Origin: Ulva prolifera
Taxonomy: Eukaryota > Chlorophyta > Ulvophyceae > Ulvales > Ulvaceae
NCBI GenBank assembly: GCA_023078555.1
Contig: CM041197.1
Coordinates: 5,105,810-5,169,809, forward strand
Direction: 5' to 3'
DNA: 64,000 bases
In this document: positions 1 through 55,530 of the stretch, piece after piece
Layout of the letters: each line of letters opens with the position of its first letter
Position numbering within the stretch: position 1 is the first letter of the stretch
Notes under the pieces: model-generated
What the model saw: only the letters and a program-made list of their open reading frames with translations
Databases searched by the model: none
What the model was told of the DNA's origin: nothing
Position numbers and translations under genes: made by a program

Positions 1-2
1 AG

Positions 3-3000
3 GTCCCTGAGGGCTCCGACGTATCCGAAGAAGACTACGGAGACGACGATGTGGACAGCCTATACGACGACGCCAGCAGTGTCTTCTCAAGCCTGTCAGG
101 AGATGACTGGGACACAGACTCTACTGAGGTTTGTCCTTTCGGTGTCTCCCGACGCTGCCTGATTATCCGATTTGCTCTTGTGCTGGGCACCCACCCCCTG
201 CTCCTTGTCGGTGTAAATGGCTGGTGAGTATGTGCAGAGCGACTCCCTCGATGGCCGCGAGGGTCCACAGGTCGCAGCTGAGGCTGCAGCCGTGAAGGGG
301 ACTGCCGCATGGTGGCGTCAGAGACGGATGGATCCGGTCTCCGACACCTGCCGTCTCACAGTGTTGACTGTATCAATGTGGATCGCCAGCCTGAAAAGCA
401 TGTTCCGGATGAGTGATGTTGTGGTGGACATGTGGTGTCGTTTTGTGCATTACCTACTCTTACCAGATGGGAATATGTTCCCCCCATCCTTCCACCTGGT
501 CAAGGCTGTCCTGGCTGTACCAGATGTCTCTTCAGTGACCCGGCACGTGTGCCCACAGTGCTGGACTCTCTTCCCAGGTATAAAGCCGTGTGATCATACC
601 CACCACTTGGACGACGTCTGCAACACCCCAGGGTGCACCCAGAAGCGTTTCGAGGTGGACCTGGCAGGCAAGGGTGCACCTTGCCGGAGTGTCTTCTTCT
701 TTGGGGAGGCCGCATCGCTGAAAGACCTGATTCTGCAACCTGGCGTCCTTGCCGCGGTTCGTGCTCATCGAGTGCACGCCCTAATGGATCCCGCCGGTTT
801 CTGGCAGTCCCCTGCCGGACGTGCCCTGAACGCCGCATGCGGCGGGGTTTTCGCCAAGGCTGACCCGGACGAAATTGCACTGCTTTTCAGCTTGGGTGCG
901 CTCGGCTTGAGTTCGACCTATCATGCGTCCCCGTCACTCAGTTGCCAGGCCATCAATATCGTCTGGGTCCAGTGGGGCCTGCAGTAGCCTCTCCCCGACA
1001 CTAAGTCCGCTTGCAGGGGGTGACGGCGCCCAACTGTACGTGAACAAGCAACACGGGACCACAATCTGGGGCATCCGCCTGCTGGACCTCCCCCCTCATC
1101 TGTCTCATTGCAATGAGGCCTGGATCCCCCTGGGGGTAGTCGAGGGCCCAACTGAACCCACGAACATGGACAGCATCCTTGCACTGGTCCTCGAGTTCTT
1201 CAAGAAGCATGACCCAGGTATGTGTCAGTCTGGCGAGTGTGTACCCAACGCACACTCATGTCCGGCCAGTGCTTAATGTGGCTGTGTTCACTATAAACCC
1301 CCTACAATGCAGCCAGGAAGGGGGAGGACGGGGTCGAGGCTCTCAAAGTCGAGATGCCTGACGGAACAGTTCTGCGCATCTGGCCTGTGCTCTGCTGTGT
1401 GGAGGGCGATATTCCGTGGATGCAGAAGTTGACCAACAGCATCGGGCACGGCGGCAAGAGGGCGTGCTTCCGTTGCGCCCAGAACGGCATCTGGGTGTTC
1501 GCAGCCAACACAGTTCGGTATGTTGGCTCCAGTTGCCGTGCCGTCGCCATGCTGCCTCTGACCACCCCTGCTTACCCCTGGCATCCCTGCCAAGCCCGCC
1601 TCCGCCACCCCCTCCGACATGGCTGGGGGGCTCACTACTGTCCTTATCAGACATCCGCCGTGCAGCTGGCTTGGGTTCCACGGCCCGGTCATCCAGCCTC
1701 AGCCGGTTCACGCTGCGGGGCCTGATCAAGGAAAGCCCCTCACAGCGGCGCAAGAGACGGAGATTGCCGCGGGGGCGGTGCCGAGGATGGTGCCCGGCAG
1801 TATGGAACCAGACCCCGGGCCCCCCCCCCCCCCCCCCCTCGCACGAAGTGGTCCGAGGTTACCACCATCGACCCGGCGACCCTGGCAAAGGACTGCCGGC
1901 TGAAGTACTCTGCTTCAGAGATGTGCGCTCGCGGCCACACAGCAGACTTGTTGATCGATCAGGTGCTGCTGCCCTTGTATTTGAATCTTTCCTCTGTCCT
2001 GCGGCCCATGTGCCAGCATGCATGGTCGACGTTCTGCAATCACGCCCACCAGGTGGCTTGCATGCAGACCACCAGCCCCACGTTGGACCGCTACACCGCC
2101 AAAGACACCCTGCTGGAACGGCAGAAACTTGCGAAGAAGGAGCACATCCGCCTGGGGGTGAAAGGGTCCTCCCTGTTCAGCACCCTCTCATACTTCAAGT
2201 GCGCACCCCTACCTCAGGACAGCTGCCATACCGTCATCTGGACCCACGAATTCACCGTGACGGATGTTGTTCTTGCAGTCCCTGCCACTTCTTCCGCTAC
2301 GGCGTCGCGCACGTGTTCCTCCTTGGCATCCTCATGGACTTCTGGAATCAGTGGCTGCCGAGTTCGAAGCGGCGTAAGAAAGCCCGCCCAGCAGGCCCCC
2401 GTCGGTTGTATCAGCTGCCTAAAGAGGTGGTGGCCCAGATCGCTGCCCGCGCGTCCCACATCATGCACACTTATCTGTTCAAGAAAGTGTACACCGACAT
2501 CACCAAGTGCGGTCACTGGTTACTGCTGGCAGCTGTCCCATGCACACGTGTCGTGAGCCTTACAGCTCGTGGAGGCCAGCAGGTGGCTCGCTTCAAGTTT
2601 GCACTGCTGCAGGCACCGGTCTCGGTGGCTCATGGAGGACTGGCTTGCGTTCACAGAGACATTCTCCCTGTACTTGCTGCACGACCTCAAATGGGAGCCC
2701 GACCAGGAGGGTGTTCGGCTGGTGTTCGAGGAGATGTGGACGCACCTCCGAGCAGGCACCCTGTACTTCCTGCGGTACGAGGAGCTCCAGCATACCGCAC
2801 CCCGGATCAAAGCAGCTCAAGACGCGTTGATGAAGTACGGCGCAATGGCAGAAGATCTCTTTGGGGGGGAGGTTATCTGCACCTTCAAGCTTCATGTTGC
2901 AGCCTGGCACCTACCGGACCAGGTGAGATGCTGTGGGCCTTCGTTCTTCTGTCTAGAGTTCTGGATCGAACGCATGGTGCAGCTACTCAAACGGCTGATC

Positions 3001-3947
3001 AAATATCGTTCCACCAAATCACCAGAGAAAGTGTATGTCAACGATGAGCTGCTGCGGCGCACATGCATGAGATTGCTTCACAACAGCGATACGGCAGAGG
3101 CGGCCATGCACACGTTGCAAGAGGCCGTGGCCTCTGAGAAACGCCGTCGGTCAAAACGGAGCAAGGTCCAGGCCGCAGTGGGCGACAGCGACTCTGATGG
3201 CGGTGATGACAACAGGGTAAGGACCTCGACGCCGAAGAGAAGAAAGAAGTGATGCCGCTGGGGTACACGGGGGTCGGTGAGTTGTCCGGGCTGCCATACC
3301 TGCTCTACCACCAGGACGCCCTGCAGGAGGCAGGGTGGCCGACCCAGCGGGTCCTAAGGGAGGGCTACGGTAGGAAAGAGGCCATCATGCGGGCGCTTGG
3401 GCTGCCGGTCGCTGGGGAGGTTGTTGCTGGGCGGCAGCTCTGTGAGGTGCACCTACGAAAATTCCTGCGAGGGCGGGCTTTGGTAGGGGATGTCCTGACC
3501 TGTGCGCAGCACACCGGTCAGGGTAAGAACGACAATCGATGGTGCCTGCTGAAGTACCATGTAGTAGAGGAGGGTACGAATGTGGGCCAGGATCGGTACT
3601 ATGTTGGCGACTTGCAGTACATAGTCCGTGCCAGGCTCAGCACGGCAGATGGGTCTGGTATCTGTAGAACCTGCACTGTCGAGGCCAGAGACCTGTATCT
3701 CGGTGTGACAGACGTGTACGACTGTAGTACTCCCTATACACCCGGATGCAGGGAGGCGGATGAGGTGCTGAACCGCGCTCCCGAGTTTTACAGGGTGGAT
3801 GGTGTGCATCACCGTTCCTCGGCTTACACTGGCCGGTATGTAGTGAACATTGATGCTATGGCCGGGCAGCTGGTTCCGGTGAAACGGACGGCAGGAGGTG
3901 TTCAGTACTGGCAGACAGCTAATAAGGCCTCCGGGCGTACTGTGTAA
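3..3947 (+). CDS. TNP2/CACTA-like transposase, copy A (5' end outside window)
   Basis: DDE transposase gene of the En/Spm-CACTA TNP2-like type. Clear exons are 3-128 (acidic, Asp/Ser/Tyr-rich), 238-895, 1017-1217 and 1313-1517, joined by GT-AG introns with matching phases; later exons lie near 1845-2200, 2279-2505, 2600-3215 and 3225-3947. Exon 238-895 has a Cys-rich cluster (HVCPQCWTLF, then CNTPGCTQKRF). The core signature follows in order: GDGAQLYV (first Asp), GVVEGPTEP with a downstream Asp, then GHGGKRACFRCAQNG. Every segment has a counterpart in the copy at 20743-25339, and the two proteins are clearly diverged paralogues. Oddities: a 19-C run (1820-1838) and a frame change near 3215 (GDDN to KDLDAEEKKE) may be errors or inactivating indels. 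Its stop lies about 45 bp before the inverted-repeat array at 3994. The family assignment is firm; whether it is active is not. Confidence 0.8.
1820..1838. repeat. Poly-C homopolymer, 19 nt
   Basis: An uninterrupted C run inside the transposase copy A gene. The reading frame before the run (GSMEPDPGP) differs from the frame after it (TKWSEVTTIDPATLAKD), which matches copy B. It therefore lies in an unrecognised intron or is a length-variable or mis-assembled tract. Confidence 0.9.
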
Positions 3948-3993
3948 ACAGGTCATCCCCCAGATGGCGGGATGGGACCACCATGCGGAATGC

Positions 3994-4296
3994 ATGTGCC
4001 CAGTCAGCGCCATCGCGGAATGGTTGCTGGCCCATCAACCAATCCGCATGCGTGCAATGCATGTGCCCAGTCAGCGCCATCGCGGAATGGTTGCTGGCCC
4101 ACCAACCAATCCGCATGCGAGCAATGCATGTGCCCAGTCAGCGCCATCGTGGAATGGTTGCTGGCCCACCAACCATTCCGCATGCGTGCAATGCATGTGC
4201 CCTGCACGGCTGAAGTGTCTACAGGATGCCCGCGTGCACAGTGTCGATGCTGTGACGTCCTGTGCAGCTCGCCAAGGCCAGCCTGGTTTCTAATGG
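3994..4296 (+). repeat. Left inverted repeat with 67-bp unit array (3 units)
   Basis: Three 67-bp tandem units (TGGTTGCTGG recurs at 4021, 4088 and 4155) followed by a unique stretch of about 105 bp up to 4296. The whole block is repeated in inverted orientation at 11966-12472. The unique inner part differs at only a few positions, for instance GTGC versus GTGG in the CCTGTG motif. Each unit holds an imperfect palindrome centred on the TGGTTGCTGGCCCACCAACC type of sequence. Confidence 0.9.
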
Positions 4297-4475
4297 CGAG
4301 GTAATTCCCTTTATATGAGGCATCGTCGGCCCCGCGTGTCTTCACTGCATCGATCTCCACTCTGACCTGTGTGTACGTACGCGGTATTGTCCCTCGGCTA
4401 CTGACGCCGGCAGTACCCAAGCGCGTACTGCGTCCCGTTCAATACCCGCGAGCTGTTAAATTAGTGTTACAGAAG

Positions 4476-5744
4476 ATGTCGGCCGTAGGCGGCGAGGGTG
4501 CTGTTGCCTGCCGTGAAGGGGATGTCCAGCCTGACACCAGCGTCACAGTAACCATCCCGCATAGCCGTCTGCGGGCGGCGCTATTGCCCGCTATTGGGAC
4601 ATTAATATCTAGGTCAGGTCATTTCACCAATGTGGGGCGGGTCGGGCCCAAAGGGACGCCCGACTCCCACGCTGCTTGCGATGCTTGGTTTGACGTCGGG
4701 CTACAGGTCGTAGACCGGGTCGAAACAACCGTAGATCAGAGCGTTGCATACGTGAAGTATGCTGTAGTCATCGCCTGCCTGCAACTCGGGGGGTGGCTGC
4801 GCGAGCAGGAGAGGATGTTGGTGCCCGCATGGGAGGGACTATCCGCACCCCCGCCTGGATGTGACGCCCCTTTGGCCTGGGTCAAGCTGTATGGTAGGAG
4901 GAAGGTGTGCCCATCTCAAGTGATTTTGATCCCGTCGGCTCTGCTACAGGACCCCTTGGAGGGCACTCCTAGCGCCCATGCCCGGCCGCCACGCCGGCCC
5001 ATTGTCGGGGCCTTCGACCTCATGAGGTTACCCCGAGCATGCAGGAACTGGTCAGTGGACATGTGCGCCCACGTGCCTCACCGGCGCCCGCACAGGCTTC
5101 GGATTCGGGTCGCGCCGGGCCTGCCGGCTCCGAGACAGTGCAGCAGAGCGATAGGGCGGTGCTTGGGGTCCCGTCCTTGCCGAAAACCAAGAAGCGGAAG
5201 GAGGCGGACCCTGCCCCGAAGGCAGACACCGGTGCGTTTCAGTATTGGGTTTATGCCAAGTCATGCATTGTCGCCCGACTTGTGCAGCCGTATGGGTATA
5301 CGAATGCAGGTTTTGTGGAGTATGCGGTGACCGGCCCCCGGTCCATTCTGTGGGCCTGGTGCTTTTTTTTCAGTCGCATCCACCCTGACTCCCAGCCCAT
5401 GAGGGTGCCGTCCAACAAGCGGCAGAAAACCGGGGCGGAGACGGACAGTCAACAGCCCATAGGCAAAACCAAGGTGGCTGAGCCCACATGTAATGTGCCT
5501 GTCGGCATGAATCCGCTGTGCACCCTGTTCTTGACCGAGAAGACACTGGCCCGCACTTTTTGCGATGAAGACGATCTGACCCCAAGCCAGCAGCTGGCGC
5601 AGAGGGTGTACCTGCAACCCTCCTGCCGCGCCGTGCTTGCACAGCATGCTGGCGCCCCCTCTACCACGGTGACACAGCTCTCCGCCGCCAGTAATCTCCT
5701 GTACCAGATCCACATCTACTTCCCTCTTCTGATTGAAGTTTATG

Positions 5745-5779
<35 letters not shown>

Positions 5780-8700
5780 AACCCCACTCGTGTCAGGCAT
5801 GCATGGTCACCCAGATTATCGAGGTCCGGTAATACTCGCTGGTAGCCTGTTGGTGTTGTCCCTCGTTCTGACTAACAATTGATCAGTTAGACCGGTCGTG
5901 GACTCGGGGTAGCTTTTGGCTTACATTCCCTCTGTCTCCAGGACATGGACACCCTCGGGGATTTTGTGGAAGCCGTCGCAAATCTTGCGCCTTTCGTAGT
6001 GCAGTACGCTGCGACGCATCCTCTGATCAAACCGGCGCCGGTGCGGCCCCTATGGACATGTATCGTGCTGTAGTCACGCTGATGATGAGTTTACACGTTC
6101 ACCAATCGACTGGCGCTTCCATAACAGATCTGCCTTGTAGGAGACCGATGTGTCTGTGATATTGTGTCCGTGGTTCGCATCTGTCGGGGCGTTTCACCTA
6201 GCCATCCTCAACGCTGCTGTTTCGTACATGCCAGTGCGCAAGGGCCGGTCCACCTGCGACTCCGGGCTGCAGCTGTGCATCCGATCCTACCAGGTTATGG
6301 TGTACGGATCGGCGCACTCAGACCCGGATTTCAGTGCTCGGCTGCCAAACTGGCAGCTTGAAGCTCATCGTTTGGACAGCCGCTGCTTCGAGGACCCTCT
6401 TTATGCGGCCATATTCGTCACCGCCGTGAACACCTCTTGTGCGCACCTTGGGTTTCCCATCCAATCCCATGTACTGATGATGACGTATCCGAATCATGGT
6501 GTGTTGGGATTGCCTCCCCGAGTAAGTGACCGGGTACACGGCTCGATATGCAGGGCTGACCGCCTGGGGCGTCGGGGCTCCCGTGAAAGACTTCACCAGC
6601 CTCCTCATTCCCTTGTGCCCGCCAGATACACTCTGGCATTGGGGGCTGAGGGCGTGGCGGTACCTTTGCACCGTCTCTGCAACCCCGGCTGCCCAAGAGC
6701 AGGGTGGGGTGAAGAAAAAAGCCAAGTGGTTGACCCTGGTGCCCTCGTCGTTCCAGGACATTGACGACTGGGGGTACAACGGGGCCACTGCTCTGGCTAC
6801 AAGAGCCATTGCCATGGGCCTACAGAATGAAGTCTGCTCCAGGTGTGCGGATGTGCCTACACGCTGTTTGGGGAAGTTCCCATCATACTACAGTTGTATT
6901 GGATCGGTGTTTTGTAGCTTTTAGGACAGTCGGCTGTAACGCATGCTCTGATTATCCAGGATCGAGTTCAGCCACATCCCTAACTGCGTCCTGCAGCAGC
7001 TCCCCCCCGGTTCACAGCGTGTACCGCAGGTGTCTACTGCCGAGGTGGGTGGCAGTAGTCGCACGCGTACAGACGACAGTCCATGGGGAGTAGGGGCTGG
7101 CGACAAGCGGGACAGAGGTGATCTCGATGTCGCGCCCGGTAAGGGAAGCAAGCCCCGTCATGGCGCCACAGGTGTGGTGGTGGGGCAGTCAGCGGCTGGT
7201 GCTGGGGGTGCTGGTGGGGCTGACCCCGCCACCGCGGCGGGTGGTGCCGCTGCCGGCGCTGCTGATCAGGCCAAGCCCTCTCATGGCGCCACGGGTGACG
7301 GGGGGGAACAGTCAGCGGCTGGTGCTGGGGGTGCTGGTGGGGCTGACCCCGCCACCGCCGCGGCCGGGGGTGCCGCTGCCGGCGCTGCTGATCAGGCCAA
7401 GCCCTCTCATGGCGCCACGGGTGACGGGGGGGAACAGTCAGCGGCTGGTGCTGGGGGTGCTGGTGGGGCTGATCCCGCCACCGCCGCGGCCGGGGGTGCC
7501 GCTGCCGGCGCTGCTGATCAGGCCAAGCCCTCTCATGGCGCCACGGGTGACGGGGGGAAACAGTCAGCGGCTGGTGCTGGGGGTGCTGGTGGGGCTGACC
7601 CCGCCACCGCGGCCGGGTGTGCCGCTGCCGGCGCTGCTGATCAGGCCAAGCCCTCTCATGGCGCCACGGGTGACGGGGGGGAACAGTCAGCGGCTGGTGC
7701 TGGGGGTGCTGGTGGGGCTGATCCCGCCACCGCCGCGGCCGGGGGTGCCGCTGCCGGCGCTGCTGATCAGGCCAAGCCCTCTCATGGCGCCACGGGTGAC
7801 GGGGGGAAACAGTCAGCGGCTGGTGCTGGGGGTGCTGGTGGGGCTGACCCCGCCACCGCGGCCGGGTGTGCCGCTGCCGGCGCTGCTGATCAGGCCAAGC
7901 CCTCTCATGGCGCCACGGGTGACGGGGGGAAACAGTCAGCGGTTGGTGCTGGGGGTGCTGGTGGGGCTGAACCCGCCACCGCGGCCGGGGGTGCCGCTGC
8001 CGGCGCTGCTGATCAGGCCAAGCCCTCTCATGGCGCCACGGGTGACGGGAGTGGGCCATCGCTGTCCTCTTCCGAGGGGGGGTGGGATGGTGGGAGTGTG
8101 GAATGGGGGGTCGCCTCGAGCCTGTATGGACGCAACGCCGCTAGGTGGCCTGATGGGGGAACCCTCCTGGATACTCTTGCCCGAGTTTCTGGGATTGCCA
8201 GCCCCCCCCAAGACCCCTCCACCGGGGTCGCAGACGGGGCGGGGGGGGGGGCCTGCAAGCGGTGGTTTGCCCTGCAACTCACATGACCCTGCTCTCGGCA
8301 CGCAATATAACCCTGCATCCGGGCAGGTGCTTCCTAGCTTCGACCCCTCCACCGCTCTGGTTCCGTCGGTCGGGGTTTCTGTTAACACGCAGGATAACAG
8401 TCGGCAAATTGTCATAACCATAGACGACGAGCTGCCTCCGTCCGGGAACACCACCTGCAGCAGGGAGACTCTCCTGCATTGTGCCGCCGCCACCTGGCGC
8501 ATCATGACGCGTTGCAACCAGCGGCTCCAGTCGCCCGGTGATGACCAGAGGATCATGCTCATGATGGTCATCTCTGGGCACGGCCTGATCCCTGATCCTG
8601 CCGCTATGGACGAGGTTATCCTACTAAGTCAGGAGGTGTGTCGCATGCTGGCTCCGGGGCCTGAATCACGGTGCTTTGTATGTCCTCATCGATGTGCATG

Positions 8701-8837
8701 GGATTACGGAGTGAGACAATCAGGGGCAGTGTAACAACTTGGCGCCTGTGCAGACTCCCCAGGACGACGTGGGGGACTTACTGGAGACGCTAGACCTACT
8801 GGCCGCACCTGGAGATCAAGCTGTCGAAGAATCGTAG
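4476..8837 (+). CDS. Unrecognised multi-exon gene with Ala/Gly-rich minisatellite domain
   Basis: No family recognised. The likely start is the ATG at 4476 (MSAVGGEGAVACREG). Coding segments are 4476 to about 5030, 5040-5230, 5374 to about 5740, about 5943-6060, 6145-6521, 6554-6842, 6960 to about 8240, about 8245-8677 and 8754-8837. The joints 6842/6960 and 8677/8754 are GT-AG introns with matching phase; the last exon ends LLAAPGDQAVEES and stop. The N-terminal part is hydrophobic and mixed. A basic patch (KTKKRKEADPAPK, later SNKRQKTG) looks like a nuclear localisation signal. The middle (LPNWQLEAHRLDSRCFEDP) is globular. An Ala/Gly/Asp-rich repeat domain follows at 7150-8045, then a folded C-terminus (VLIVIT-type beta strands, ETLLHCAAATWRIM). 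Frame changes near 5030, 6550 and in the G10 run near 8240 suggest small indels or tiny introns. It may be the second (tnpA-like) protein of the element; that is inference. Confidence 0.5.
5749..5777. repeat. Poly-C homopolymer, 29 nt
   Basis: The longest C run in the window. It lies at the start of what reads as an intron of the 4476-8837 gene, just after the coding sequence LLYQIHIYFPLLIEV. Confidence 0.9.
7150..8045 (+). repeat. Coding minisatellite, 123/126-bp units, about 7 copies
   Basis: Units beginning AAGCCCTCTCATGGCGCC recur every 123 or 126 bp (first near 7150, then 7273, 7399, 7525, 7648, 7774, 7897 and 8020). In the frame supported by the upstream splice joint they encode DQAKPSHGATGDGG followed by an Ala/Gly stretch and GGADPATAA. 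The 3-bp length difference is one Ala codon, so the frame is kept. All copies are nearly identical, which points to recent homogenisation. Two other frames, one on the opposite strand, also stay open; these are by-products of GC-rich repeats. Confidence 0.9.
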
Positions 8838-9342
8838 ATTCCATGTTGAGGCAGGGGTCTGGGGTTGGGGTGGCCTGTCGTGCAGCGTGTACGACAGTTG
8901 GGGGATACGTGGTGCCATGCAGCAGTGCTGGAGCCACCACGCCACATGGTTCTAGGCAAGTACGGTATTGTGTAGTGTCGGATCTGGCTACGGATTCATC
9001 AAGTCCCCTGTACCCCGTGTCCGCTTAGCATTACACACTACAGCTTATGCACTCGAGCTTCCACACGATATGTTACAACCGCTGCCGCCCTGACAAGAAC
9101 CTACGCCTGACCGCAGCCATGCTTTTATAAAAACGCCTGTATACCTGCTATGTCTTTCGATTGAGCGGCGGCAGTGGCGTCTTGAACAGAGCTTTGTACT
9201 GAGCCCCGAACACTCCATCCGGCTTCTGAACACTGCGGAGTATGTCGGGCCACAGTGTCGTCTGGAATAGGTGCCTGCAACATTGAGTGATTCAGCTACG
9301 GAAGGAGGTCGCACTTGCCTACCTGGTGAAATGCAAAGTTTG
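8838..9342. other. Intergenic gap between convergent genes
   Basis: About 500 bp between the stops of the two convergent genes of the TIR element. It would hold both 3' ends. I see no open frame or repeat that stands out. Confidence 0.5.
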
Positions 9343-11969
9343 TCAGGGTCTATACCTCACTTCTTCTTCTGACTGGTCTGGGCAGATAGCATCATCCAGG
9401 TTGATGTCCCATCTGGCGTCGGTCAGGATTCTCCGAGCTTCCGCCACCCCAACGTCACCCGCGTCGTCGCCTGCACGCCCTCTCTTCTCCCATTCTTGAA
9501 TCACGGATCGTGCCATGAGGATCCGATACAGGACCACCTCCTCTGCCTTCAGCGCCTTCAGTCTACCGACGACCAACCGGTCAACGCTGCTGCCATCTCT
9601 GAGCTGAAGTGGCGTCTCGTCCTTGCGTTTGTTGTCCACCTGTTTGATTACGTCACACACAGTCTCTGCATACAGGCACGTGAAAACGCCGCAGTCGTAC
9701 GTGTTCCGCTGCTGTGGGACGTCTTTCACCTGTACACCCACCTTGTGTATGGGAGATGAGCCTACGTCTGCCCAGGTGTTGTATGTCAATCCGGGATGCA
9801 ACCCCTCCTACAGTGTCAGGCGGCGACTGCCGAGTAGGACGCACCATGCGTAGGTTTAGTGTTTGTTTCGGCATCAATGCTGGCACATTCCCCTGTTTGG
9901 CGCCCCGCTTTGGCAGAACCCTGGGCCGACCACCCGACTGAACCTTGGGCAAGGGGGGGAGGGCGGGGGCGCCGTCAAGGCACTGACACAGAGCCACGCT
10001 CATCACCTCATTGATGGCGGTCGGTGCGGTTCCCGAGGCGCTCGGCAGGGAGTCATACCAGCTCATTGTAGGGCTCTTTGCTGACAGCAAGAGTCCTGCG
10101 AATCGGCATGTGATGTATCAGCCCCCCGTTGCGTTGTGGATGGTGGGGGTAACACCAAGGACATAATGCAGTCAGGGTCATTGGAGCCGCACCTGGCGAG
10201 TACACCACTGCAAGTCCCCAGTGCTTCCCGGTGGGGACCGGGATGAGGATACACCTCGCTGCTAGTGCTTTCGCCTTCTTCAGCCACGCGATGAGGTGAT
10301 GGAGCATCGCGCGGGCCTCTGCGTCGCTGCTGGGGTCCCGACTGGCCAGGCCCTTCAGGTGGTCGGACGGGACGGCAATGACCCCCCCTCCGGCCAAGAC
10401 TGCAGCCTTGACTACCCCATACTGGACTGGGGTGCTGCTGAACCACTCCGCCACCCAGAAATCCCTGAAGTGCAACACAGAGACGGTGATGGAGACCGTC
10501 GCGTCCTCAAATTTGCCGAGCTGCACCCCTACACCCTTGATAAATGAGGATCCTGAACAACCCTCAATGTCGTCCGGTCCGAACACCTGGCCGCGGAGGC
10601 GTACCCCTGTGGGGTCGTCGTGCGAAGGTTCGGCTGCCAGCCGCACCAGCGGGCGCGTCTGAGCCCTTTCCAGGGCTTGGACTAGAGGCTGCCTCCGAAC
10701 ATCGCTACCCGGAGGCAGCAAGCACGCTGGAGACAGCGTCCCTGGCTGGATTGCCGAGGGGCCTGCAGCGGCCTCCCCACCGTCTGGGGTGTCCACCTCC
10801 ATAGGCGTGGCACCTCCGGCCTCCTGGCGCGACGGCCCCAGAGGTGGCTCTGGGGGGACCACTGCAGCCGCAGCTTGTGCTGCGCCGTGGGCCCGCCGGC
10901 GGGGGACGGCGGGCTGCATCAGTGGATGCCCGATTGCAGCCCCCCCCGCCACTGTGGGGCCGGCGCTGCCCCCTCGTTCCGCCCCCACCGCTCCCTCTTT
11001 CCGTCCAGCAGCGCCTGGATCACGTGTCCGGGTCTCACGTGACCCGGGAATACCGCCTGTGCGAACTCGCAAGGTGGACTCGTGGACAACACTTTGCCCT
11101 GAGGATTCCGCCTGCTGGATCGGCGCCCTGACGGGGGCCGGCGATTGGGCTGCGCCGACCACCCCTCCACGTGAGTCCGATGGCTGCCCTCCCATGCTCG
11201 CCAGATGGGCCGGCACATCTGGGGCCGAGAGAGGGTGCTCAATGACTGGCTCTCTCGGCCACATCGGGGTGGTCTGCGGCTCGCTATCCTGCAGCCTTCC
11301 CCACCATGCTATAATCGGGGCCCCTCCGACTGTCATCTGGATTCGCAGGAGCATCCCCCCCATGTCCTCGTCGAACCCCTGGGTCGTGGCTATGGACCGG
11401 TACAGCTGGATCTCCGGTGGCCCGCATGGGGCTCCGGTCTGAACCGCCCGCTTAAAAGCGCCTTCACGAAGCACTACCCATAACATTTTGAGGTGGATGG
11501 TCGCAGCGCTGTACTCAGTCGTCGCCTCCATGTACTCCGTCGTCAGCATTCGTCGCATTGCCTCGAAGGCTGCCATCATCCGGGGCCCCGCTGCTTCGTC
11601 GCCGGCTAATATGCTATCTATTGTGGCTACATCGCAAGCTGTTAACAGCCACCCGCATTCCATCAAGTCGACTGGGAAACCGAGTGGTCGGTACTGGACC
11701 AGTCGCGGTATACTCTGCCCTGGTAACCAATTGCCCCGCGCTGCTACCTTTACGAATTCAAAAAATGTGGGCTCGTATTGTTTTTTTTCCTCAAGGACGG
11801 CGAGGTAATGCGACACGTTCGCCGGACTGATCCTGGTAATTATCCTCATTGCGACACTGCAGAGTAGGCACGACCAGGTTCGCGTCAAATGATCAACGGT
11901 GATACTAGGCGCATGGTGTACTGTAAAGGAGGTATATGGATACAGCGCGTGTGAGAAGCGCGTGTCCAT
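9343..11969 (-). CDS. Ulp1/SENP-like C48 cysteine protease (transposon-encoded)
   Basis: Three exons with consistent phases: 11969 (or ATG 11849) to 10199, 10080-9944 and 9729-9343. The long first exon has an alpha-helical N-terminal region (HYLAVLEEKKQYEPTFFEF), a Pro/Ala/Gly-rich low-complexity linker, then the start of the protease fold. The C48 catalytic set is complete: His in TGKHWGLAVVYSP (exon 1), Asp in MSWYDSLPS (exon 2), Gln and Cys in VPQQRNTYDCGVFTC (exon 3). Ulp1 enzymes process or remove SUMO-like modifiers; transposon-borne copies are common, but their role in transposition is not settled. The open frame continues upstream into the inverted repeat, so ATG 11849 (MRIITRISPANVSHY), which starts outside the repeat, is the safer start. 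It converges on the gene at 4476-8837. Confidence 0.88.
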
Positions 11970-12472
11970 TAGAAACCAGGCTGGCCTTGGCGAGCTCCAC
12001 AGGACGTCACAGCATCGACACTGTGCACGCGGGCATCCTGTAGACACTTCAGCCGTGCTGGGCACATGCATTGCTCGCATGCGGAATGGTTGGTGGCCCA
12101 CCAACCATTCCGCGATGGCGCTGACTGGGCTCATGCATTGCTCGCATGCGGAATGGTTGGTGGGCCACCAACCATTCCACGATGGCGCTGACTGGGCTCA
12201 TGCATTGCTCGCATGCGGAATGGTTGGTGGCCCACCAACCATTCCGCGATGGCGCTGACTGGGCTCATGCATTGCTCGCATGCGGAATGGTTGGTGGGCC
12301 ACCAACCATTCCACGATGGCGCTGACTGGGCTCATGCATTGCCCGCATGCGGATTGGTTGGTGGGCCACCAACCATTCCACGATGGCGCTGCCTGGGCTC
12401 ATGCATTGCTCGCATGCGGAATGGTTGGTGGCCCACCAACCATTCCACGATGGCGCTGATTGGGCTCACGCT
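11966..12472 (-). repeat. Right inverted repeat with 67-bp unit array (6 units)
   Basis: Mirror of 3994-4296: a unique part of about 105 bp (11966-12070), then six 67-bp units (TTGCTCGCAT or its variant at 12071, 12138, 12205, 12272, 12339 and 12406). Each unit contains a perfect palindrome with 14-nt arms, GGAATGGTTGGTGG, around a one-base centre. Unit number differs from the left side (6 versus 3), so the array expands or contracts independently of the unique part. Confidence 0.92.
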
Positions 12473-14219
12473 TATCGATGAGGGCTCGTTTATCGATAAG
12501 GGCTCACGCTTGTAGATCGGCGTGTCCGCGTCGCTTGTGCGCATCGCATCTACAGCTTAAAGTACACAATTCATTCCAAACTCCACTGCTATAGGTGCAC
12601 TGCGTTATCCATGAACATTCCCACGCTTAGACTGCCGGTCCAACCTGTGCGCGACAGGCTCAGCATGCCATGGCTTCCCACTGGTTCTCACCTGCGCGGG
12701 CGGCCTGTTCCTCGCCGTGGAAGAGCCCGCAGTCCTGTCAGCAGGAAAGCATAGGACATTCCGCGGCCACCAAGGAAGCCATCGGACATTCCGCGGCCAC
12801 CAAGGAAGCCATAGGACATTCCGCCACCATCGTTCCTTGTGAAGCATACGCACGCGGGCGGAAGGTCAACAGCCTCGTAGGAACGTTCCTCTGTCAGCGG
12901 AACGCCTTCGGTTCCGCCCCGGAATGTCACCATTCTCCTAGTGGTACTAGTGCCCTCCCTGGCTGTGATTCCGGGGGTGATCATGAAGCGCCCAGGGATA
13001 CTTCTTTTATTTCCTGTGCCATCATGGCATGACTGATGTAACCTTTGCAGACCATGAATTGAGCACCATGCCTGTTGTGGACTTGCCGACGAGCAGCTGC
13101 TTGCATTCGGCCCCCTCCTATCATTGCCATGCTCGCCCAGTTGATGTTATAATACAGCATTGCATGCATGCACCACCGAAGGGGCCACGTAGGAGCAAAG
13201 TACACCAGGCCACATCACAACCGTCACCCACTGTGGTGGCAACACAGAACAGCTTCACTGCACCTCAGCCGCTCAACACCACCACTAAGCAGCAACGCCG
13301 CATGGTGTAGCCCCCGATGCAGGAATCCATATGCATGGGGTACACATATGCCTGCAGTGTCAACACCGCTACTAGTAGCAGTTGGCCCCTGCCACAGTGT
13401 GTGCAATTGATACCGAGGATGCATGCCACTTAAGCTTGCGAAGGCACGCCTGCACCCTAGCCAGCTGGGCCTCCCGCGGTACCAGTGGGCGCGATCGGTG
13501 GGCTAGGACGCACTGCATGCCGCCGCTGCAGCTGAAGACACACTGACCTGGGCTTGGCGTATTCACCAGGAGTTCTCCTGGCAGTGATCGGTAACCCGGT
13601 CTCCACGCCGTTTCCTGCCTGCCATCCAGCGTGTCGACGCTGATGCCCTGAGGTGGAGCGCGGCCGCGTGGTCCGCGCACGCCCGCCACACCTCACCTCA
13701 CGCTGGGCCTCCACGCTGGGACAAAGTATTGCGTTCCACAGCCAACAGTCTGAAAGCAAGGCTGCTCCAAACTGCAGAGTTACAAAAGTACCGAGTGTGA
13801 TATATACTGGGACAGGGCAGACACCACAAAAGGCTGTACATGTACAAGAGAGTGGACGGGAGAGGACAAACACCACCAAAGAAGCTCATCCGAACCACTG
13901 GCAGCACCCACATCTCACACAGTCACACTACAACTGCACCCACATCTCAGTCCGGCAGGATCGCGTCCTCCAGGCACGCATCAGGCCCTCCAAATTGCAT
14001 TTCACGGACAATGCTGGTGCTGTTGTAGACATCAGGCTCGTCGCGACGTCCTCTATTTGTCGCTTTCACCAGTGGTCGGCGCTGCTAGACGTGCACGAAG
14101 CCCAACTGCAAAACAACCGGGAGCTTTACAACTGCAAAACAACCGGTAGCCAGTCGCAGCGGGCGGGCCCCTGCGGACAGGCCGGACTCCTTTCGGCCGC
14201 ATCGGCCCCGCCGGTGCAG
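12473..14219. other. No gene recognised; small repeats and a dispersed-repeat copy
   Basis: Just outside the right inverted repeat, a short motif GCTCACGCTT flanks ATCGATGAGG/ATCGATAAGG. At about 12749-12832 there is a 33-bp tandem repeat (about 2.5 copies of GGACATTCCGCGGCCACCAA). At 13845-13975 lies a copy of a dispersed repeat shared with 34.9, 35.3 and 36.4 kb. A long open frame through 13653-14909 has no coding character overall. Confidence 0.5.
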
Positions 14220-18600: not shown

Positions 18601-19095
18601 CATCGCGCTCCTCGAGCACTTCGAGAAAGTGTCTAGCAGCACAGTGCAACTCGCGGTGGTCGCCACGCTCAAGGTAGAAGTGCGCGCGAGATTCGACGTC
18701 TTTCATCTTTAAAGCTGACGCAATCCTGTATTAATATTGCCGAGTGCGTGTGGCATCTCGTTGTTGTCCCTGTGTTGCAGCTGTCTTATTGTCTCCAGCT
18801 TCTTGCTGCTGTGCTTCGTGGGCTTCCTCTACGGACCGTATTCGTGCCCAGGCGCCTGGTGTCACCGCCATACACCCAGTGTGCGTGTCGTTGCAAAACT
18901 CGGTGGGCTCACGCGGCTGCCATTCGTGTTGTGGTGCGGGCCTGACCGGTTAGACGAAGTACACTGCAGGGGGGCATTCAAAACGGGGGCCACCAGGGCA
19001 CGGGCGAAAATCCACAGGTAAGTGTGCTTAATCCCGGTTGTATAAAGAACATTCTGTGGATAGCATGGTGCTTCTGTACGTGCTGCTCCAAGACA
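18601..19095. other. Spacer between two tandem arrays
   Basis: About 500 bp with no supported gene. It separates the 150-bp and 344-bp arrays. Confidence 0.4.
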
Positions 19096-20680
19096 GCCCT
19101 CTTGCTGCACGACCCGGGACTCAAGCACAGATGCATCACACATCGAATGTGTACATAAATGGGCTGTTTCTGGGCCGCCAAAAAAAAAATCATGTCTGCT
19201 CTCCCGGGAAGGCTGCAGCCTCCCATTATGTAGTCCAGACACAAGCTGCCAGAGCTGATGTCTGCAAATGCATCGAGCCGTGAACCTTGGCTGAGAATGC
19301 AGTGGATATGTTTGTCAGTCGAGTGGTGAAAGAGTCAATATGATAGCTTGAGAGTCCTGTCAGGATTGCACTGTTGCACGAGTGTGCGTGTTTGGCAAAA
19401 TGCTGGCACAATCCACAACTGTAGCAGTCTCTCACGAGCAGCCCTCTTGCTGCACGACCCGGGACTCAAGCACAGATGCATCACACATCGAATAGGTATA
19501 AGAATGGGCGGTTTGTGGGCCACCAAAAAATTTTGATGTCTGCTCTCCCGGGAGGGCTGCAGCCTCCCATTATTTAGTCCAGACACAAGCTGCCAGAGCT
19601 GATGTCTGCAAATGCATCGAGCCGTGAACCTTGGCTGAGAATGTAGTGGATATGTTTGTCAGTCGAGTGGTAAAAGAATTAATATGATAGCTTGAGAGTC
19701 CTGTCAGGATTGCACTGTTGCACGAGTGTGCGTGTTTGGCAAAATGCTGGCACAATCCACAACTGTAGCAGTCTCTCACGAGCAGCCCTCTTGCTGCACG
19801 ACCCGGGACTCAAGCACAGATGCATCACACATCGAATAGGTATAAGAATGGGCGGTTTGTGGGCCACCAAAAAATTTTGATGTCTGCTCTCCCGGGAGGG
19901 CTGCAGCCTCCCATTATTTAGTCCAGACACAAGCTGCCAGAGCTGATGTCTGCAAATGCATCGAGCCGTGAACCTTGGCTGAGAATGCAGTGGATATGTT
20001 TGTCAGTCGAGTGGTGAAAGAGTCAATATGATAGCTTGAGAGTCCTGTCAGGATTGCACTGTTGCACGAGTGTGCGTGTTTGGCAAAATGCTGGCACAAT
20101 CCACAACTGTAGCAGTCTCTCACGAGCAGCCCTCTTGCTGCACGACCCGGGACTCAAGCACAGATGCATCACATATCGAATAGGTATAAGAATGGGCGGT
20201 TTGTGGGCCACCAAAAAATTTTGATGTCTGCTCTCCCGGGAGGGCTGCAGCCTCCCATTATTTAGTCCAGACACAAGCTGCCAGAGCTGATGTCTGCAAA
20301 TGCATCGAGCCGTGAACCTTGGCTGAGAATGCAGTGGATATGTTTGTCAGTCGAGTGGTAAAAGAATTAATATGATAGCTTGAGAGTCCTGTCAGGATTG
20401 CACTGTTGCACGAGTGTGCGTGTTTGGCAAAATGCTGGCACAATCCACAACTGTAGCAGTCTCTCCCGAGCAGCCCTCTTGCTGCACGACCCGGGACTCA
20501 AGCACAGATGCATCACATATCGAATAGGTATAAGAATGGGCGGTTTGTGGGCCACCAAAAAATTTTGATGTCTGCTCTCCCGGGAGGGCTGCAGCCTCCC
20601 ATTATTTAGTCCAGACACAAGCTGCCAGAGCTGATGTCTGCAAATGCATCGAGCCGTGAACCTTGGCTGAGAATACAGTG
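19096..20680 (+). repeat. 344-bp satellite-like tandem array, about 4.6 copies
   Basis: GCCCTCTTGCTGCACGACCC recurs at 19096, 19441, 19785, 20129 and 20473. The first copy is more diverged (345 bp spacing and a longer A run), the next three are almost identical, and the last is cut at about 20680. The array ends about 60 bp from the stop of transposase copy B. Small open frames in each unit are repeats of one another and are not treated as genes. Confidence 0.93.
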
Positions 20681-20742
20681 GGTGTGAAAAACTGGACTGT
20701 TGGTGTCAGCCCCTGAACAAGTGTAAATTTCTGCTTCATACA

Positions 20743-23700
20743 CTACCGTTTTACACCGGCATACCTACCAGACAATTTTGAAGACACACAGAAATACCGG
20801 GTGTCGTCCCTCTCACGGGTCGGGACCACCTGTGAGTCTATTGTTCTCAAATCCAACACAAACACGCCCTCGAACGTGCTGCCGGCTCGGGAGGGGTCCA
20901 ACCTGGCCACTTTCACAAATTCATGCAGTCTGCCTATTTCCGGGTCTGCAGCCCTGACCCCCGGACCGTGCTGGTCCTCACTACTGTACAAATTGGCCAC
21001 CCCCAGCCTCAAATCAGATGGATGGTGACGATCACTTCCCGCCCGTGTTGCTCCCTCGGGCAGCATGTTGCATGTAAACGCAGCATGCACAAAATACAAA
21101 AATTGACCCACGTAAACCTTCCTCTCCTTGCGGCCATCTGCATGCTCCACGGAATACTGAATGAGGAACCATTGATTGTTCTTCCGTCGTTGTGAGTTGC
21201 ACTGTACACTGCTCACAGTGTCCCCGGTGGTGAGGTCTGCCCGTGTGAATTTTTGAAGCACCACCTTCACCCCTTCCTTGCCGGCCCCAAGGGGACCCTG
21301 AAGCCCAAGTTCATGCAAAATAAGCCCTGGCCGCTGGTCCTCCGCATTGTCTTTGAACACGGGCCACCCGTCTACCAGGAGGGTTGTGTCCTCGAACAGA
21401 AGTTGTGGCAGACCTTGCAGTACAATGTCTTCGTCTGTGGCACTCATTGGAGGGATGTGCAGCACCTGCGCCTTTTCGGCGTCTTCAGCCTTCTTTGGTG
21501 CACCTAGCAGCAATGCCTGCCCCGGGAGGGGTTCATCACGAGATAGCAGGCGGCGCTTCTTTACGGCCCGCAATGCCTCGTACAAGGACACACAGTGACA
21601 ACCATCTGGGGACAACTTGACCCGGCGGCACGCCAGCGTCAGTAGCCAGTCATGCACAAACAACAACTCGGGGTAGGCGGTGCTGCGGTACTTCACCATC
21701 CTCTTCACAAGTTGGACCATGCGCTCCACCCAGAACTCGGTCCAGGTGTATCCTGGTCCGCAAGCCCTCACCTGATCCGCCAAGTGCATGGCAGCCAGGT
21801 GCAGCTTGAAGGTGGTTATGTACTTACCACCGAAAATCTGCACGCATATGCAGACTTGTAATGCCAGCTGCATGATGGCACATTCGTGGTCACAATGACT
21901 TGTATGTGTGAATTTGAACATCCCTAACGTGTGTTCAAGGATGACAAGCACCTGTTCAGCAAGTCTCCCATATTCCAGAAGATCTTTTTGAGCCTGTACT
22001 AGGCGCTCTTCAGTGTGTTGACCAGCATGCCACTTCATGAAGTAAAGCACAGATGACCGTAGTAGTGACCACTGCTCGTCAAATACCTTTTTCAGGTGGA
22101 GGTGCTCCCGTTTCCATGGTAGATCGTTCAGTAGGAACATAGAAAATGTCTCGGTGAAAGCAAGCCACTCTTCCATCATCCAGAGGCCTCGGTACCTGCA
22201 ACACGAGGCAGCCACATTAGTTGTGTAGGGCTAATCCCACCAGGCACAATTTTTTATGCAAGCACGGCCACGAAGGTGGTCACACACCGAATTAGATCAG
22301 TGTATGGCTTCCCGAAAAGCTCGGTAGTAAGAATGTCTTCTCCTTTCTTGGTGAGATGCGTCCGGATGTAGGTAGGGAGGACGCACCCCTTTCCAGACAC
22401 TTTCCCCAGCCACATCCTCCAGAAGTCCTTCAGGATGCCAAGCAAGAAGAGGTGTGCGATGCCGTACCGAAAGAAGTGACATGGGCTGCAAGCACATCCG
22501 GATCCAGTCAGTGAGATAGCGCAGCTGCTGGAACCTGCTTCCGGTTGGCAGCACACAGGAACATCAGATGGAGGGACTCACTTCACGTACGACAGCGTCT
22601 GGAACATGGGCTCTCCCCGAGCACCCAGATCCTTCTGCTGCTGATTGACCCATTCAGTGCGCTGGTTTTGGTCCATATCCTCCACTGCTTTGAGTGTTGG
22701 ATGCAACACCTGGTCCTGGAGGAGTTTGGCCTTCTTGCCTCGTAAGAGGATCTCGGTAGCGCTGTACTTCAGCACATTGTCTGACAGCCACGTATCTGAT
22801 CCCACAGCGATGGGATCTGTGAAGGCTGTCCTGGTGAGGAAGCGCCCATCATCCTTCTGTAGGTAGCCAAGTGGCATGCGGGGTTTTTCCCCTGAGCGGT
22901 CTACACCTATCTGCTCTAGAGGGTGCATAGTTTGGCCCGCGAAGGCTGCACAGCTGCCAGCAGCGGCATAACACGGCACTCTTTGTGTTACATCTGCATC
23001 AAACCCCATCCACCTGCATATGCAGGCACTCCGGTTTGGATGGTGCACTTGGCAAGACATACACGTCGTGGAGCAGCACATGTGGGAAGTTAACTGGCAA
23101 TTGTTGGATGCATGGCCATGCATGGCCATGGCCACAAGAACACACCGGACTGTGTTGGCTTCGTGGTTGTGCGCCCCTGAAAATGCACACGCAAAGCAAG
23201 CATTTCCGGCCGTATGATGTAAACCTCCTGTTAATTTCGTCATGAACGGGATGTCTCCTTCTGCTGATACCAATACAGGCCAGACCTTCAGCAGCCTTGG
23301 ACCACCCACATTAACCCAGAGCGGAGTGGACCCTGGGCGGCCTGCAGCTGTCGCGATCTCAGCCGTGAGTTCCATCCTGTCCGGAGGCCCCGGTGCTGTG
23401 CAGGGACTTGGTGTGGTGTGGATGGCAGTATTGCTAAGGTCACACCTGGGTCATGCTTCTCAAAAAACTCCAAGATAGGGCCCATGACATCGTGGTAGGA
23501 CCCCGGCTCGGTAGGGCCTTGCACGACGCTCACAGGAGACCATGTGATATTCTTGGCTTGCAACCCTTCTGGTGCATCTGTCAACTTCAGTCCACAGGCC
23601 AGCGTACCGTACACCTTGTTGGTGTAGATCTGGACGCCATCACCCCCTGCATGTGCAGCATTGATCGGATAGTGCTGCAGCTGCCTGTATATAGCTAGTC

Positions 23701-28989: not shown

Positions 28990-33815
<4,826 letters not shown>

Positions 33816-34476: not shown

Positions 34477-34827
<351 letters not shown>

Positions 34828-55200: not shown

Positions 55201-55315
55201 CCCGCTGTGGTGGAATGAGCAAGCCGGTGCTGGCCCTACATGCCTCACAGGAGCTCTTTGTGTGTGATAACGGGGCTGGCCGAGGGTCTGCGGGAGTGCG
55301 TGTGTGGGAGGCATG

Positions 55316-55530
55316 CTTGCGGGTGCAGATGTGGGCTGCGCATGCATGCGGATGCAGACGTGCGTGCGGATGCAGATGTGGGCTGCGCATGCATGCGGAT
55401 GCAGACGTGCGTGCGGATGCAGATGTGTGCTGCGCATGCATGCGGATGCAGACGTGCGTGCGGATGCAGATGTGGGCTGCGCATGCATGCGGATGCAGAC
55501 GTTCGTGCGGATGCAGATGTGGGCTGCCCG
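55316..55530. repeat. 47-bp tandem repeat, about 4.5 copies
   Basis: GTGGGCTGCGCATGCATGCG (or GTGTGCTG in one copy) recurs at 55331, 55378, 55425, 55472 and 55519, exactly 47 bp apart. Each unit is rich in alternating purine-pyrimidine GCATGCATGC. Confidence 0.93.

Follow-up and report, generated by a model that had tools for sequence, protein, structure and literature searches.

Related CACTA elements

The CACTA-ULP elements of grapevine (Cactavine-2, -3, -4, -5 and -13) encode a TNP2-type transposase together with a Ulp1 protease, proteins similar to theirs are known in rice, and Ulp1 is also carried by MULEs (PMC2528002); this account and the two cited below are compared here as far as their available text extends. 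The stretch of Ulva prolifera DNA analysed here, 64,000 nucleotides of contig CM041197.1 (GenBank assembly GCA_023078555.1, forward strand positions 5,105,810 to 5,169,809) and hereafter the window, contains an 8.5 kb unit (window positions 3994-12472) with hairpin-array inverted repeats at its ends and two convergent genes, a Ulp1/C48 protease gene and a second gene, geneB, that together are termed the cassette. A preliminary description, made from the letters alone, took the unit for either a new type of transposon or a passenger of a neighbouring TNP2-like enzyme. The analysis leads us to conclude, with considerable confidence, that the unit is the inner half of a CACTA/EnSpm element of 17.5 kb, within which it forms a module that has a separate history.

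With the grapevine elements the U. prolifera element has in common its CACTA nature and a Ulp1 domain, and their TNP2-type transposase has a weakly recognised TNP2-like counterpart here. In contrast, the grapevine host is a land plant, and an array-bounded two-gene cassette, its inversion and the exchange of modules are not described in the available text (PMC2528002). The Jozin elements of Chenopodium likewise have CACTA ends, a Peptidase_C48 domain in ORF2 (open reading frame 2) and DUF4218 in the transposase ORF, a domain matched here below threshold, whereas Transposase_21, TAD and DUF4216 are recognised there and unmatched here, and some Jozin elements have Transposase_24 beside C48, where geneB has no Pfam family above the cut-off (PMC8978399). 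The soybean element Tgmt* (20.5 kb) is similar in size and has a 3-bp target-site duplication (TSD), short CACTA inverted repeats and asymmetric palindrome-forming subterminal repeats (2 left, 12 right) that are taken as domains for a TNPA-like protein. Its arrays, however, reach no farther than 159 and 732 bp from the ends, closer than those found here, the U. prolifera element has a further array in its middle, and the term Ulp1 is absent from the text on Tgmt* (PMC2613891). The subterminal repeats of published CACTA elements are recognised by TNPA-like proteins (PMC2613891). The open-access literature searched, mostly by listing, yielded no account of a CACTA element in which an array-bounded cassette is inverted or exchanged, and as far as that search extends the arrangement is new for CACTA elements.

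Ends of the mobile unit

The mobile unit spans 17,512 bp (C2:5101241-5118752, C2 being the contig of the window). Its left end is at window position -4568, with 4,569 bp preceding the start of the window, and its right-hand 12.9 kb occupy positions 1-12943 on the plus strand. An 18-bp inverted repeat, CACTAGGAGAATGGTGAC, is identical at 18 of 18 bases between the two ends, the right copy being on the minus strand at 12926-12943, and the TSD, GTA, at 12944-12946 has its partner just before C2:5101241. Read inward, the right end is CACTAGGAGAATGGTGACATT, which is present with two or fewer mismatches at 172 places in the 88.9 Mb genome searched, compared with one place for a control read backwards. 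The sister motif from the left end, CACTAGGAGAATGGTGACGTG, has 60 exact places and its backwards-read control none. These motifs are opposite ends of the same elements, and matching 3-bp TSDs are present in all 14 copies for which both flanks were read, one of them nested inside another element (C3:2067822-2113602). There are three more ends without a read partner, the left end of L037 and the right ends of L014 and L015. Copies that end differently would escape a search in which the right end is located by its own letters, and all copy counts given here are lower bounds, as the genome search scores best candidates and end motifs were accepted only when exact or with up to two mismatches.

When the first 16 kb of the window are aligned to 19 fetched stretches, with rows of fewer than 250 aligned bases dropped, copies that retain the inverted arms of the 8.5 kb unit remain homologous beyond them, leftward through the neighbouring transposase gene (transposase A) and rightward to position 12943. 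Beyond 12943 the flank differs from one fetched copy to the next, except that L014 and L015 have the same flank, presumably one duplicated segment. CACTA-beginning terminal inverted repeats, 3-bp TSDs and subterminal repeat arrays are each present in the element, and since terminal repeats with TSDs are the signature of CACTA/EnSpm transposition, the 17.5 kb element is the mobile unit. Judged by its ends and TSDs, it is a large CACTA/EnSpm transposon, with a transposase that is weakly recognised by profile.

Two cassette types joined to one transposase half

A second full-length element, C7:581900-599935 (18,036 bp), served as comparison partner. The transposase exons of the two elements differ by a synonymous divergence (dS) of 0.042 (769 codons, 1 stop codon dropped), compared with dS values of 1.04 for geneB and 1.03 for the Ulp1 gene, and the C7 cassette is reversed relative to that of the window. 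Colinear identity is 0.90 up to position 4281 and 0.50-0.66 beyond, and because the C7 cassette is reversed, this point, where the left arm has its inner edge, marks the inversion breakpoint and the left junction of the inverted or exchanged segment. At the other side, identity recovers from 0.74 (12672-12721) through 0.86 (12722-12771) to 0.98 (12772-12821); the diverged segment therefore takes in the right array, and its right edge, at 12722-12771, is ~200 bp from the right element end and ~270 bp beyond that array. The match to the left arm stops at 4291 in four of the five fetched type-2 elements (L022, L024, L025 and L026) and at 4137 in the fifth, L018. The contrast is general and extends beyond one copy, as the 12 type-2 elements with a transposase are 95-99% identical to the window over a 1000-base transposase probe and 75-77% identical to the window cassette in their best cassette segment. 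In the sequences compared, two deeply diverged cassette types are thus joined to nearly identical transposase halves, mostly in opposite orientations.

Genome-wide, there are at least 30 copies of the transposase (89-100% over the probe), 22 with a cassette match downstream and 8 with none by probe. Ten of these 22 have a type 1 cassette, in nine oriented as in the window copy, itself included, and in one, L021, inverted; the cassettes of the other 12 are type 2 and all 12 are inverted. There are also at least 30 cassette matches, 13 of type 1 and 17 of type 2. A transposase is upstream of 22 of these, and seven of the remaining eight are <25 kb from an exact element end, with C3:4380376 having none. 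The end near a 279-bp cassette fragment, C7:6262802, probably belongs elsewhere and is close by chance. These contexts were assigned solely from exact matches to the end motifs (60 left, 57 right), within a limit of 17 kb, and one assignment, C9:3739624, spans a nested element. At C1:800496, a copy without a cassette core by probe, the start of a type-2 Ulp1 gene is present and element homology then stops, and downstream of C2:6607113 there is no match among rows of at least 180 aligned bases. L029 (C5:9462441-9470860) is an 8,420-bp relative that has the same CACTA ends, the TSD GTA, a long palindrome array and a 2.5 kb internal 94-bp tandem repeat, and has no cassette; 18 of 43 nearest-end pairs span 6.0-8.8 kb. 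Directly after a cut type-2 cassette, at 2589-5354 of L048, there are ORFs with translations that give the impression of a hAT-type transposase.

These contexts bear on the proposal that the 8.5 kb unit represents a present or former independent transposon, bounded by hairpin arrays, that travels within the CACTA element into which it once inserted. Its inverted arms and two genes would fit, one edge of the inverted segment is the inner edge of an arm, and 2 of the 30 cassette matches (C7:6262802 and C3:4380376) are without clear CACTA context. Against this, six cassette matches in addition to the 22 with an upstream transposase are in a fitting place near an exact end, the right edge of the diverged segment is not at the array edge, and the palindrome array of the arms recurs near the left element end and in the cassette-less 8.4 kb relative. 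Transposon ends at the arrays were rejected, as in the copies the sequence extends beyond either array as far as TSD-flanked CACTA termini, and we regard an independent origin as very unlikely. The homology beyond the arms speaks against the ends that the preliminary description gave to the unit at 3994-12472, and its new transposon type, with the product of 4476-8837 as recombinase, is not upheld, the terminal repeats and TSDs belonging to the 17.5 kb whole. Its own grounds for doubt, copies that include transposase A, hold for the 22 of 30 matches above, and the flank alignment it proposed did reveal TSDs, at the ends of the 17.5 kb element and not at those of the 8.5 kb unit. Its passenger hypothesis comes near to the present interpretation, in which the cassette belongs to the interior of the very transposon that encodes the TNP2-like enzyme and has a history unlike that of the transposase half.

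Hairpin arrays and inverted arms

The near-identical inverted repeats initially noticed at the two ends of the unit are arms of 308 nt, 3989-4296 (plus strand) and 11966-12273 (minus strand), that are 94% complementary and consist mostly of 67-bp tandem units. Tandem Repeats Finder (TRF) and a palindrome scan place a middle hairpin array at 3982-4202 (67-bp unit, 3.3 copies) and a right array at 12058-12468 (67-bp unit, 6.1 copies, with a 27-bp palindrome core), 475-885 bp from the right element end. A third array with the same palindrome in a 61-bp unit is 2.2-2.7 kb from the left element end. The left arm has at least 154 matching rows in the genome, several per array. Closer to the right end, at 12743-12824, TRF detects a 30-bp tandem repeat (2.7 copies) that is also present in the 8.4 kb relative.

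Each array unit contains a palindrome of 27-29 bp that is retained across unit lengths of 61, 67, 71 and 49 bp and is absent when the letters of the 17.5 kb element are shuffled (20 versions). As single-stranded DNA, a right-array unit folds with -22 kcal/mol (z -4.27), a value that 0 of 200 shuffles equalled. Folding is weaker for a unit from the left-arm array of the window copy (z -1.58), which 15 of 200 shuffles equalled. A paired change, GGTTGG/CCAACC to GGTCGG/CCGACC, is present in part of the units in two arrays, the left one of C7 and the right one of C5. The palindrome fits a putative binding site for a dimeric protein. That the middle array is decaying and functionless was considered and rejected: the window copy has 2, 2 and 1 mismatched pairs, yet the middle palindromes of L010 and L011 are perfect. 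Perfect palindromes are also present in the right array of L021. Also discarded was the possibility that the arms end at a common start codon. Both terminate in TTTCTAATGG. In the C7 element, however, there is no ATG on the Ulp1 side, and conservation of the geneB frame starts at 4476; a common start codon is therefore not claimed.

Near-identity of the arms is a type-1 feature. In the C7 element, the arms match at 256 of 384 columns (score 151.5), compared with 221 of 403 (score 24) for a shuffled control. This is one of several observations that disfavour a programmed invertible switch, in which a recombinase, perhaps geneB, would flip the cassette and so change which gene faces which array. 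Both orientations do exist and long inverted repeats do bound the flipped segment, but orientation tracks subfamily (9 of 10 type 1, 12 of 12 type 2), which makes the flips look like infrequent past events, the middle array is missing from L021, the inverted copy of type 1, and geneB has no match to a recombinase domain. A switch of this kind is considered highly improbable.

The cassette genes

GeneB is located at 4476-8837 on the plus strand, with approximate exons and the 8837 end taken from the first annotation. Stretches conserved relative to the diverged copy, based on tblastn, are 4476-4919, 5051-5746, 5936-6055, 6141-6446, 6550-6849, 8101-8232 and 8279-8692. Within the gene, at 7149-8049, TRF identifies about seven copies of a 123/126-bp repeat that encodes a 41-aa unit rich in Gly and Ala (GAGGAGGADPATAA...); the protein, conserved elsewhere, is of low complexity in this region. 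Compared with the C7 copy, the ratio of non-synonymous to synonymous divergence (dN/dS) is 0.315 (776 codons, with the repeats, 7030-8100, excluded and exon limits set by hand). GeneB has no Pfam family above the cut-off, and no Pfam match to an RNase H-like fold was obtained. Sub-threshold matches of its C-terminal part to SET_TTL (E 0.008) and DUF732 (E 0.03) are taken as chance. A PDB search with the first 622 aa of the joined exons gave no matching chain up to E 5, exon 2 (5051-5746) had no viral relative in one viral_contigs scan, and a single-sequence AlphaFold model of this exon has a mean predicted local distance difference test (pLDDT) score of 40.6, too low for a fold to be read.

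The Ulp1/C48 SUMO-protease-like gene is convergent to geneB, at 9157-11969 on the minus strand, also with approximate exons. It matches PF02902 (E 9.1e-9), and alignments to SENP1 (E 1.5e-5) cover the catalytic His and Cys stretches. The translation contains GKHW, YDS and QQRNTYDCG stretches, in which, by the known motif, Asp and Gln would have catalytic roles. Conserved relative to the diverged copy, again by tblastn, are 9157-9279, 9349-9738, 9842-10099 and 10161-about 11900. The dN/dS value relative to the C7 copy is 0.308 (681 codons, with 10700-11100 left out and exon limits hand-set from the tblastn results). The preliminary description was accurate here, as both convergent genes are conserved at the protein level relative to the diverged copy, the protease gene has a C48 domain by profile, and no transposase profile matched either cassette gene. 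Based on these comparisons, geneB and the Ulp1 gene both look real and under purifying selection.

The transposase half

The TNP2-like transposase gene occupies positions 1-3947 on the plus strand, with presumed introns and its first exons outside the window. It is delineated from ORFs, a sub-threshold DUF4218 match, the open frames of other copies and an ORF at 5-1093 of L048. The gene starts about 4.2 kb from the left element end (about 4262 in L028) and has several presumed exons. Among 19 element copies recognised in the list of DUF4218 matches, 15 have the last exon as a single open frame, 467-469 aa long. In the window copy it is split into ORFs of 227 and 232 aa that meet near 3.25 kb, and the transposase of this copy may therefore be disabled. 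Searching the genome with DUF4218 returned 60 weak places, at least 17 of them beside copies of this transposase. In the left half outside the window there is an ORF of ~188 aa (about 3353-3932 of L028), on the minus strand, divergent to the transposase and without a Pfam match, and its product is a second candidate array-binding protein. A second TNP2/DUF4218-like transposase gene, with a translation that resembles transposase A, is present on the minus strand at window positions 21000-22500. It has a sub-threshold DUF4218 match (C2:5127488-5127679), and equal-scoring copies are present on other contigs.

Possible assembly of the element

A plausible scenario can be suggested. The TNP2-like protein would cut at the CACTA ends, and the palindromes would be putative binding sites for an element-encoded protein, as are the TNPA-bound subterminal repeats in En/Spm. 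Both cassette genes may also be controlled by the arms, which directly precede the conserved portions of their coding sequences. Copies with common arrays and ends could have undergone recombination, conversion or gap repair that flipped the cassette, and the same processes could have joined different cassettes to one transposase half, with either the cassette or the transposase half being the part that moved. The protease and geneB would then be accessory proteins of the element. More speculative, and in our estimation rather doubtful, is that the hairpin arrays are docking borders for the modular exchange and flipping of the two-gene cassette between lineages, with one transposase half retained and geneB as an array-binding regulator.

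Several observations weigh against interpreting the unit as a module with its own history inside a CACTA element. The dS contrast comes from one full pair and is near saturation for the cassette, and the identity drop at the left arm, being an inversion breakpoint, is by itself no proof of exchange. The type-1 copy L021 has no middle array, and none was seen in L048 with a cut of 180 bases. In comparisons with L021, a closer copy, dN/dS is 0.48 for geneB (2 stop codons dropped) and 2.1 for its exon 8279-8692, and 0.40 for the Ulp1 gene and 1.3 for its exon 9157-9279; with values above 1, recent constraint on these two exons is unsupported. In other array units, among them the ones that make up the right array of C7, the change affects one side only, so that support from paired changes is mixed, and the small minus-strand ORF has the left array on its 3' side, which means that not every promoter is marked by an array. 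The transposase matches DUF4218 only below the cut-off (E 0.003), as did one of 14 control genomes. Transposase_21 (PF02992), the core TNP2 profile, has no match in the element at E up to 10, in a scan in which HMMER filters discard most matches above 0.1, and no D-D-E triad was mapped.

The lack of a PF02992 match, and the presence of Ulp1 also in MULEs in the available account (PMC2528002), could be read as placing the element in KDZ, MULE or another Ulp1-carrying superfamily instead of CACTA. Pfam matching at E up to 10 returned no KDZ or MULE profile, however, and the CACTA termini with 3-bp TSDs in 14 of 14 copies are at odds with such an assignment, which appears scarcely credible. We therefore retain the CACTA/EnSpm element, with the cassette as its inner half, as by far the most probable explanation.

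Other repeats in the window

Outside the element, the window has a (TG)n tract of 1.84 kb (31396-33237; 925 copies, 99% matches), and at 34480-34827 there are more TG tracts together with TGTTGC tracts. A 344-bp tandem repeat (4.6 copies, 97% matches) is present at 19094-20681, and at 55314-55527 there is a 47-bp tandem repeat (4.6 copies, 97% matches) with TGCGTGCGGATGCAGA-like subunits.

Implications

To our knowledge, the recurrence of Ulp1 proteases in DNA transposons is so far unexplained. In this element the protease gene is more than a stray fragment, as it has been maintained together with geneB under purifying selection while the cassette lineages diverged to a dS of ~1. With selection on both the protease and its partner, and with both lineages beside a near-identical transposase half, a role for the protease becomes testable as a function of the element. 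Trees constructed from transposases miss part of the history of such elements.

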